A DNA stretch of 64,000 nt from Acidimicrobiia bacterium (GTDB taxonomy: Bacteria > Actinomycetota > Acidimicrobiia > Spongiisociales > ZC4RG35), in contig JANQRA010000010.1 in assembly GCA_028284765.1 (NCBI GenBank), positions 1 to 64,000 on the forward strand, given 5' to 3'. Below, piece by piece: positions 21,434-51,209 of this stretch (its first letter is position 1; the number at the start of each line of letters is the position of its first letter). The position numbers and the translations under genes were made by a program. The notes below the pieces were generated by a model. The model saw only the letters and a program-made list of their open reading frames with translations. It did no database searches and was not told the origin of the DNA.

Positions 21434-22390
21434 TTAGGCAAACCCCGGGTTCATATCGCCGGATACGGCTGATATCGGATCAAGAACCGCGATTGTCCTT
21501 CGAAGAGTGGAAGCAACTCGAGTCGGACTCTCGGTTACCTCCTGCCAGGTGAACCTCAACACTCGCCATCCTGCAGCCTGAGCAGCATTGTCTCGAAGAC
21601 GGTCGGTCTCGAAGGCTTCGGACTTGCTGTGCCAGCGGCGGCCGTCGACCTCGACGATCAGAAGCGAGTCCGGGTAGGCGAAGTCCACGCGACCGTTTAC
21701 TCGCCGCAGCCATGGAGCTCGGAACTGTTCGATCGGTTGTGGCAGGTCGAAATCCCTCAACAGGGACCGGAATCGTCGCTCGAGCTCGCTCTCGTCAGCC
21801 GACGGTGGTCCTGCCAGATTCTCGAGAGTCTTTCTCAGTGAAGCTGTACCTGGCTTTCCCCTGCGTGCTATCTCGAGGAACGTGGTTTCCAGCAGATCGA
21901 GATCGACGATGCCACGTGCGAGACTTCCTTCAAGCACTCTCTGCAGGTGCTTTTCGCCGACCACTGCCGACAGGTCGATGATCGTTCGCTCCGGTGTCGT
22001 CACTGGCAGCCCGTCGATCTCCACCACCTGAGCAAGGGTGAGGTCGGCCACCTGGTGGATCGTGCATCCTTCGTACGACTTGGTCTTGTTGCGCGGCACG
22101 CTGATCGTGAGCTTGATGTTGGGTGGCCGATCAAGATCGTGGATGTGGGCCGCTGCCTGGTGGGAGACCACGGCGCCTAGCTTCCGACAAGCGGCATGTA
22201 GATCGATCAGGTAGTTGTCTATCGCTCCCGGCAGAGCGAGAAGACCAGGCCGAATTCGCGTGAAGACACCGTCGCTCACCCTTCGCCGGAGTGTCGTCTC
22301 GGCCATACCGAGGGCGATGGCTTCTTCGCGCGTGACGACGCCTCCATGAATTCGTGCGAACTCAATGACTCTGAAGAGAGCATTTCCCAT
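21434..22390 (-). CDS. AbiEi-like N-terminal HTH plus DUF559 (Vsr-like nuclease fold) protein
   Basis: C-terminal VDFAYPDSLLIVEVDGRRWHSKSEAFETDRLRDNAAQAAGWRVLRFTW; N-terminal winged-HTH-like region. Confidence 0.75.
   Translation of the reverse strand: MGNALFRVIEFARIHGGVVTREEAIALGMAETTLRRRVSDGVFTRIRPGLLALPGAIDNYLIDLHAACRKLGAVVSHQAAAHIHDLDRPPNIKLTISVPRNKTKSYEGCTIHQVADLTLAQVVEIDGLPVTTPERTIIDLSAVVGEKHLQRVLEGSLARGIVDLDLLETTFLEIARRGKPGTASLRKTLENLAGPPSADESELERRFRSLLRDFDLPQPIEQFRAPWLRRVNGRVDFAYPDSLLIVEVDGRRWHSKSEAFETDRLRDNAAQAAGWRVLRFTWQEVTESPTRVASTLRRTIAVLDPISAVSGDMNPGFA
21441..21487 (+). repeat. Palindromic repeat family R1, copy a (47 bp)
   Basis: aaccccgggttcatatcgccggatacggctgatatcggatcaagaac. 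Confidence 0.85.
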
Positions 22391-22435
22391 GTCGTTGAGA
22401 GTCGTGGGTGTGGAGGCTCGGGTCTACCCCCTTGT

Positions 22436-22482
22436 GAACTTGATCCAATACCCGCCACATATGGCGATATGAACCCCGGGTT
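22436..22482 (-). repeat. Palindromic repeat family R1, copy b (47 bp, inverted)
   Basis: gaacttgatccaatacccgccacatatggcgatatgaaccccgggtt. Confidence 0.8.
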
Positions 22483-31176: not shown

Positions 31177-31237
31177 TGAGTCTCATTCTGAGGGCTGTGG
31201 ACTTCGCTATGCGATGGTACGAACCCAGGGTTCGCAT

Positions 31238-35863: not shown

Positions 35864-36165
35864 TGGTCGATCCCGGGTGGTACATGGGCCTCGCGGCCGT
35901 GCTCTTCACGATCGGCTCGCTTGGCCTGCTGGTCCGTCGAAACGCATTGGTCATGTTCATGTGTATCGAACTGATGCTCAATGCGGTGAACCTCACGCTG
36001 ATCTCTGCCGGTCGCGCCCTGGGTGACATCAATGGCCAGGTGGCCGTCTTCTTCATCTTGGTGGTCGCCGCGGCGGAGGTAGTGGTCGGGCTGGCCATCA
36101 TCGTCTCCATATTCCGCCTTCGTTCAACGGCCTCGGTCGACGAGCTCTCGGAGCTCCGCGGATGA
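35863..36165 (+). CDS. nuoK: NADH-quinone oxidoreductase subunit K (operon 1)
   Basis: [38 protein letters not shown]. Confidence 0.93.
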
Positions 36166-36179
36166 CCCTCTCTCCGCCG

Positions 36180-36226
36180 AACCCCGGGTTCATATCGCCA
36201 TATACGGCTGCTATCGGATCAAGAAC
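36180..36226 (+). repeat. Palindromic repeat family R1, copy c (47 bp)
   Basis: aaccccgggttcatatcgccatatacggctgctatcggatcaagaac. Confidence 0.85.
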
Positions 36227-36256
36227 GGTTGCCGCCTGGGCAAATCGGGGGCGGAC

Positions 36257-38143: not shown

Positions 38144-38160
38144 GATCAGCCTTGCTGTCC

Positions 38161-38207
38161 GTATTCGATCCGATATCAGCCATATATGGCGATATGAACC
38201 CCGGGTT
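38161..38207 (-). repeat. Palindromic repeat family R1, copy d (47 bp, inverted)
   Basis: gtattcgatccgatatcagccatatatggcgatatgaaccccgggtt. Confidence 0.85.
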
Positions 38208-49998: not shown

Positions 49999-50011
49999 TC
50001 TCCTTCTATCT

Positions 50012-50056
50012 CGAACCTGCATCGCGTTTCGCCTAGCGCGCTCCCGTGCAGGCTCA
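50012..50056 (+). repeat. Palindromic repeat family R2, copy a
   Basis: cgaacctgca...tgcaggctca with internal agcgcgct. Confidence 0.85.
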
Positions 50057-50083
50057 ACGAAGAGGCTTCCTCCCTCCTTCCCT

Positions 50084-50128
50084 CGAGCCTGCAGGGAGTC
50101 CCGCCTGGCGCGCTTCGGTGCAGGCTCG
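50084..50128 (+). repeat. Palindromic repeat family R2, copy b
   Basis: cgagcctgca...tgcaggctcg, perfect 10-bp arms. Confidence 0.85.
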
Positions 50129-50169
50129 ACAAAGGGGTTGACTTCGGGTTGTAGACGGCTCACGTTGGA

Positions 50170-51105
50170 GTGGTGACTGATGTGCGAGCGCTCAACGAGA
50201 TTGCGCGGCGTCAACACGGCGTGTTCAGTCTGCGTCAGGCAAGACGGGTTGGTTTCGGGCGCTCGGCGACACTCCGCAGACTCGATTCAGGGGAATGGGT
50301 ACGACTCGACCATCGGGTCTATGGCCTTAGCTCAGCTCCGACGTCCTGGCACCGAGATCTCATGGCTGCAGTGTTGAGCCAGCCTCAAGCGATCGTAGGC
50401 CACAGGTCTGCTGCCCACCTCCTCGGCCTGTACGACATTGCGAGAGGATCTCCAACGATCGTGGTGCCCAAGGGGTCGAACACTCGCTCGGGGCTGGCAC
50501 AGGTCATCGAGTCGGACCAGTTCGCCAGGCTCGCCACAACGACGGTGGGCGCATTCCAAGTGACAACGGTTCCCGAGACGATGCTGGCGCTCGCCGCTGA
50601 TCTCGAAGGTGAACAGCTGACTGACCTGTTCGATGCCGCTCTGCTGGCTGGCAAGCTCGACCTGAAGGCTCAGTTCGTCATCTTCGATCGGGAAGTTGGT
50701 CGCCGACCGCGAGGAATCAAACACCTGCGGCAGCTGGCGTTGAGTCGTCTTCCAACGGCCCCGTCTCATGGTTCCTCTTACCTGGAGGCAATGCTCGAGC
50801 GCGTTCTCAAGGCTTCCCAGCGGCTACCGGCATGGACGCGGGAGTATCCGTTCACAGTGAATGGCTCAGAAGCACGGGTGGATGTATTCATCCCGGATTG
50901 GAGCCTGGTGGTCGAATCAGACGGCCGAAACTGGCACATGCGGAACCAGGCCTTCGAATCCGACCGCGCCCGAGATATCGAGCTCGCTACCGGCGGACTG
51001 CAGGTACTGAGATTCACCTATGACATGTTGCTCTCGGACAGCCACGGCTGCCTCGACCAGATCCTGAAGGTGGGGTCCGTCCGAACTGCACAGCGTTTCG
51101 CTTAG
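50170..51105 (+). CDS. AbiEi-like N-terminal HTH plus DUF559 (Vsr-like nuclease fold) protein
   Basis: VDVFIPDWSLVVESDGRNWHMRNQAFESDRARDIELATGGLQVLRFTYD; N-terminal HTH-like region. Confidence 0.75.
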   Translation: MVTDVRALNEIARRQHGVFSLRQARRVGFGRSATLRRLDSGEWVRLDHRVYGLSSAPTSWHRDLMAAVLSQPQAIVGHRSAAHLLGLYDIARGSPTIVVPKGSNTRSGLAQVIESDQFARLATTTVGAFQVTTVPETMLALAADLEGEQLTDLFDAALLAGKLDLKAQFVIFDREVGRRPRGIKHLRQLALSRLPTAPSHGSSYLEAMLERVLKASQRLPAWTREYPFTVNGSEARVDVFIPDWSLVVESDGRNWHMRNQAFESDRARDIELATGGLQVLRFTYDMLLSDSHGCLDQILKVGSVRTAQRFA

Positions 51106-51125
51106 CGCGCTTCCGTGCAGGCTCG
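51082..51125 (+). repeat. Palindromic repeat family R2, copy c (contains stop codon of DUF559 gene)
   Basis: cgaactgca...tgcaggctcg; TAG at 51103-51105. Confidence 0.85.
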
Positions 51126-51153
51126 ACGGATGCGGCAAGGCCGTTGACACCCT

Positions 51154-51198
51154 CGAACCTGCACCTCGTTCCGCCTGGCGCGCTCCCGTGCAGGCTCG
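51154..51198 (+). repeat. Palindromic repeat family R2, copy d
   Basis: cgaacctgca...tgcaggctcg. Confidence 0.85.
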
Positions 51199-51209
51199 AC
51201 GACTAGGCG

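Follow-up and report, generated by a model that had tools for sequence, protein, structure and literature searches.

Repeat-bounded DUF559 genes of an acidimicrobial genome: apparently an undescribed self-spreading DNA with a homing-type nuclease

A nuclease gene and the two inverted repeats that bound it form a unit at positions 21441–22482 of the window, by which we mean the whole 64,000-nucleotide stretch of DNA analysed here. We consider it probable, at roughly two chances in three, that this unit belongs to a REPIN/RAYT-like system whose enzyme is unrelated to RAYTs. More generally, repeat-bounded DUF559 genes have the appearance of a type of self-spreading DNA not described before, based on a homing-type nuclease. 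With slightly less assurance, we also favour the broader view that DUF559-type (EDxHD/Vsr-fold) nucleases, either fused to an AbiEi half or stand-alone, are a second, independently evolved class that maintains and spreads private populations of palindromes in bacterial chromosomes, in Actinomycetota at least. The main rivals are an operator or regulon role for the repeats, and a homing parasite residing in repeats that are spread by something else.

The unit is intergenic, between the convergent genes rex and cytS (a cytochrome-oxidase gene), and is made up of three features:

21434–22390, minus strand: AbiEi_4 + DUF559 gene of 318 aa, with an AbiEi-like DNA-binding half and a Vsr/EDxHD nuclease domain (assigned from Pfam, Foldseek and conserved residues)
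21441–21484, plus strand: R1a, on the 3′ side of the gene, encoding the last protein residues by read-through
22439–22482, minus strand: R1b, the inverted counterpart, upstream of the gene and between its start codon and rex

R1a and R1b are inverted copies of 44 nt, 82% complementary and separated by 954 nt, which bears out the preliminary description of this DNA as a single AbiEi+DUF559 gene between inverted repeats. The outer ends of the two repeats, given there as the same, are near-identical, with a single-base difference (AACCCCGGGTT and AACCCGGGGTT). Within the window, four sites match the outer 20-mer of R1 at no more than 3 mismatches (0.00 expected). The last codons of the gene had been assigned to R1a; the gene does end inside the repeat, but with a stop codon up to 7 nt beyond the edge of the unit, and the tail has no counterpart in homologues. 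Because homologues end before the R1a-encoded stretch, the C-terminal tail is simple read-through, and we rejected a functional role for it. As single-stranded DNA, single R1 copies form weak hairpins (z −2.3 to +1.5), in which they differ from most other families; a strong single-strand hairpin as a general rule for the repeat families fails for R1.

Pfam identifies PF13338 (AbiEi_4, residues 7–54, 1.8e-11) and PF04480 (DUF559, residues 235–298, 4.7e-9) in the 318-aa protein. In Foldseek, its AlphaFold2 model (mean pLDDT 88) has matches in the AbiEi antitoxin 6y8q and in the I-Bth0305I catalytic domain (3r3p, TM-score 0.79 on the target), with a weaker match to Vsr, and sequence profiles agree with Foldseek on the nuclease part, an EDxHD homing endonuclease. 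As modelled, the protein joins an AbiEi DNA-binding half to a homing-endonuclease domain of EDxHD type. Neither Pfam nor Foldseek found a Y1/HUH tyrosine transposase domain, only AbiEi and DUF559/EDxHD. Residues E204, D236, E247, H254 and D263 are kept in nearly all of 76 homologues, as expected for an intact active site, and dN/dS between close homologue pairs is 0.10–0.24, a sequence-based sign that the protein is under purifying selection. In its own promoter, AbiEi binds inverted repeats of 11 bp set 27 bp apart (PMC3985639), and I-Bth0305I forms a dimer on a target almost 60 bp long (PMC3943268); this operator layout and this target length both fit the repeats that bound DUF559 genes.

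Since PADLOC AbiEi models match the N-terminal half and the C-terminal half is a Vsr-like nuclease, the protein could also be an AbiEi-like defence or restriction nuclease whose repeats mark self or are by-products. We judge this very improbable: no AbiEii nucleotidyltransferase toxin gene is adjacent to 21434–22390 (the neighbours are rex and the cytochrome-oxidase subunit gene), the locus has no defence-island context, and private repeats at both ends would be left unexplained.

Seven genes of the genome score above the Pfam cut-off for DUF559. All seven have repeats on both flanks, a different family bounds each gene, and six of the seven families have dispersed extra copies; for the family at C18:28113, a search of the six non-R1 families together returned no copies beyond the flanks of its own gene. 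The second unit that the preliminary description placed at 50–51 kb, with another repeat family, is real. This family, R2, has two copies per side, that is, four at its own gene, and two elsewhere in the genome. The window also holds a dispersed copy of a third family:

50170–51105, plus strand: second AbiEi_4 + DUF559 gene, 311 aa, bounded by R2
50010–50066, plus strand: R2 copy 1, upstream of the second gene
50082–50138, plus strand: R2 copy 2, upstream of the second gene
51079–51135, plus strand: R2 copy 3, downstream, overlapping the last codons of the second gene
51152–51208, plus strand: R2 copy 4, downstream of the second gene
31192–31236, plus strand: dispersed palindrome copy of the family that bounds the DUF559 gene at C22:161807, ending just before an ATG

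Two of the DUF559 genes (C18:52349–53231 and C18:28113–28987) are broken by frameshifts or stops and have kept both flanking repeats. At C19:19243–19376, two different repeat families stand side by side, some distance after a ribosomal protein L10-like gene. An AbiEi_4 gene without DUF559 (C23:51933–52088) has short palindromes on just one of its flanks, in contrast to the genes that carry the nuclease. Further duplications in the window are two diverged respiratory complex I clusters at 34–39 kb and 54–60 kb, about 21 kb apart (direct repeats D2–D5), and the two-copy repeats 13116–13173/13862–13919 (58 nt, 76%) and 8792–8826/8982–9016 (35 nt, 74%).

The association extends to relatives. From a DUF559 search of 79 genomes of the family and order we took 69 AbiEi+DUF559 loci, which with the seven here make 76. 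Each was scored by the best local alignment, in either orientation, between its 550-bp upstream and 480-bp downstream flanks; flanks paired at random between genomes served as the null (99th percentile 23.5). Scores of at least 24 were reached by 57 of the 76 loci, and of at least 22 by 60, in a set that includes orthologous sites and is thus not independent. The same threshold of 24 was reached by 3 of 26 rex loci, 24 of 234 shifted windows (a DUF559 unit is present in one of their source loci) and 1 of 379 offset windows of the 64-kb window. The common flank repeats are typically about 45–60 nt long, at times two per side, and are laid out directly as well as inverted; self-complementarity exceeds all of 100 shuffles in 41 of 60. 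Nearly all of the genomes compared are metagenome assemblies. In genus g23, a conserved homologue has no flanking repeats, which shows that the gene can do without the repeat.

That DUF559 homologues elsewhere are repeat-flanked thus holds for seven of seven genes in this genome and for 57 of 76 loci when relatives are included. The preliminary description had argued for a gene–repeat partnership from two cases. The flank counts support this pairing, as do the R1 mapping and the empty sites described below, and to it we add the dispersal of the repeats, the rule of one family per gene and the EDxHD nature of the nuclease half. In most of 11 cases examined, short stand-alone DUF559 genes of relatives are likewise bordered by long hairpin-rich repeats, from which it follows that the nuclease domain alone may carry the repeat association.

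R1 is not confined to its gene. Two further copies in the window (36180 and 38188) enclose nuoL, with no DUF559 gene between them:

36180–36228, plus strand: R1 copy between nuoK and nuoL, where several relatives have a gap of 5–11 bp
38159–38207, minus strand: R1 copy between nuoL and nuoM, where several relatives have a gap of 8–13 bp

Genome-wide mapping, a check suggested in the preliminary description, located 34 sites in the whole 2.9-Mb assembly at up to 2 mismatches. We therefore rejected the idea that R1 is exclusive to the DUF559 gene, as its 34 sites are mostly next to ordinary genes; the flanking genes are housekeeping genes (best 25 of 92 families). Some copies are full palindromes or inverted doublets about 100–120 bp long. 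No transposase was found among the best 25 of the 92 families that flank R1 (30 loci), nor at two further R1 loci, and within that scope no known IS or MITE accounts for R1. An ordinary IS or MITE with the gene as cargo between two copies would explain why inverted repeats bound a 1-kb unit and why solo and paired copies exist. Given the lack of a transposase in or next to the R1 copies in that search, and a layout that recurs in many genomes with a different repeat family per DUF559 gene, we give this explanation hardly any weight.

R1b is situated some 50 bp ahead of the start codon, which raises the prospect that the repeats are operators: the AbiEi half would repress its own promoter, just as the AbiEi antitoxin recognises, in its own promoter, a palindrome of comparable size (PMC3985639), the dispersed copies would form a regulon or act as decoys, and the nuclease would do something else. 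In most loci, however, a matching copy is also found downstream of the gene. Around 30 R1 sites, the adjacent genes are convergent at 13, tandem at 14 and divergent at 3 (genes called by coding score, with a few sites belonging to one pair), so dispersed R1 copies mostly avoid divergent promoters. Doublets and lineage-specific insertions, moreover, need a copying process. A purely operator role seems quite unlikely to us, and upstream repeat copies may nonetheless double as operators.

Repeat families track their genes across genomes. R1 is present here in 33 copies and missing from 44 relatives. The palindrome GCGTGWGCAG-N-CTGCWCACGC, which belongs to the DUF559 gene on contig C15, is present in 4 of 45 genomes, all with an orthologue of the cognate gene, and a fifth orthologue (in G043) has a diverged palindrome; the hypergeometric probability that all four palindrome genomes fall within the five orthologue carriers is 3e-5, ignoring common ancestry. 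The inner 23 nt of the dispersed copies of this family are homogenised, being 77% alike within a genome and 33% between genomes (0 of 10000 permutations), as predicted if copying took place inside each genome after divergence. Among pairs of loci from different genera, 61% share a repeat (score of at least 24) at 50–60% protein identity and about none below 40%. Most of these pairs come from syntenic sites; elsewhere the trend between protein and repeat is modest but present.

Comparison of the same sites between genomes shows insertion in particular lineages. rex and cytS are convergent neighbours across the order, and in at least 14 relatives the gap between them is 11–160 bp with no DUF559 gene; these are the empty sites that the preliminary description had proposed to look for, though the relatives are strongly diverged and the junctions are not placed to the base. 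A unit of about 1 kb is found there in this genome and in G013, with DUF559 genes of different lineages: the G013 gene has 47.6% identity to the 50-kb gene of the window and 35% to the gene at the rex site of the window, and is bounded by another palindrome. Between nuoK and nuoL, where R1 is located here, G013 has an inverted doublet of the palindrome from its own rex site. The nuoK–nuoL gap (36165–36256 in the window) is a repeated landing place, and G006 has a AACCCAGGGTT-like repeat there.

Many DUF559 loci are old, vertically inherited sites conserved across genera, which implies that gene movement is rare. Only one long match to the gene was present in 72,556 plasmid records and none was found in a phage search, and this near-absence fits a resident chromosomal system. 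We rejected frequent hopping of the gene on both grounds, the conservation of sites across genera and its scarcity on plasmids and phages. The same data bear on the possibility that the repeats are REP-like and spread by another enzyme, with the nuclease gene as a homing parasite that enters vacant repeats through cutting and repair. The nuclease domain is indeed of homing type, solo repeats would be the vacant sites, and the unit has the expected repeat–gene–repeat structure. Against this, each gene has its own family, the family is missing where the gene is missing, no transposase adjoins R1 copies in the best 25 of 92 families, and plasmids and phages almost never carry the gene. We regard a homing parasite of this kind as unlikely.

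The layout also occurs beyond the class. We searched contigs for homologues with a closer alignment subset, as the full alignment was too diverse, and the closest named contigs were from Acidimicrobiia. The same layout is present in cultured actinobacteria, for example Planotetraspora sp. A-T 1434, Curtobacterium sp. MCBD17_013 and Pseudoclavibacter helvolus DSM 20419. The Curtobacterium sp. MCBD17_013 genome has 62 half-sites of the palindrome GAGATCGCASTYGTTGCCG, about 36 palindromes by clustering, and two other Curtobacterium genomes have none.

In the REPIN/RAYT-like system that we favour, each AbiEi+DUF559 protein is the partner of one short palindrome family. Its AbiEi-like half would bind the repeat of about 45–55 bp, as AbiEi does the inverted repeats of its own operator, and its EDxHD domain would cut DNA at or beside the repeat. 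As the break is repaired, a new copy of the repeat, single or as an inverted doublet, would arise at another intergenic location on the same chromosome; on rare occasions the whole repeat–gene–repeat unit would be copied. The sequences show the partnership and the insertions; binding, cleavage and copying caused by the protein are steps that we infer.

If this is true, the same way of life would have arisen more than once, in an unrelated enzyme family, and DUF559, a large family of unknown function, would gain a function. Candidate nucleases would also become available, each predicted to have a long palindromic target private to it, and the reasons for which bacteria maintain repeat populations, and the ways in which they do so, would become testable in culturable strains. 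We found no description of a DUF559–palindrome system in the open-access literature searched. There, no title or opening of an abstract on DUF559 is about repeats, and nothing links Vsr with REP, or palindromes with homing endonucleases in Actinobacteria.

The repeat-bounded DUF559 units share features with several known systems. Like IS elements and MITEs, they have inverted repeats that bound a mobile-looking unit with short derivatives; unlike them, they have a separate terminal repeat family for each DUF559 gene, and no transposase was found next to R1 among the best 25 of 92 flanking families. The N-terminal half has the AbiEi fold (6y8q) of the AbiE type IV toxin–antitoxin system, and the AbiEi palindrome has a similar layout, whereas the locus at 21 kb lacks an AbiEii partner, a C-terminal nuclease is added, and the repeats flank the gene on either side and also occur dispersed. 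The DUF559 half has the same catalytic fold and motif as EDxHD homing endonucleases such as I-Bth0305I; in contrast to I-Bth0305I, the unit is intergenic rather than in an intron, intein or phage gene, an AbiEi-like half is fused on, and dispersed palindromes are associated.

Where dispersed bacterial palindromes have a cognate gene, the standard explanation is a RAYT. The resemblance is extensive: in both systems a gene, here that of a DUF559 nuclease, lies between two palindromes of a family private to it, with dispersed extragenic solos and (inverted) doublets, largely vertical inheritance and several systems per genome (PMC2817692, PMC3116915 for RAYT-REPIN). The DUF559 repeats differ from REPINs in being longer (about 45–60 bp) and fewer (2–36 copies), and their hosts are Actinomycetota. 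Unlike a RAYT, the protein combines an AbiEi-like half with an EDxHD/Vsr-fold nuclease, with no HUH/Y1 domain found, and because the enzyme is unrelated we place the DUF559 system outside the RAYT-REPIN family.
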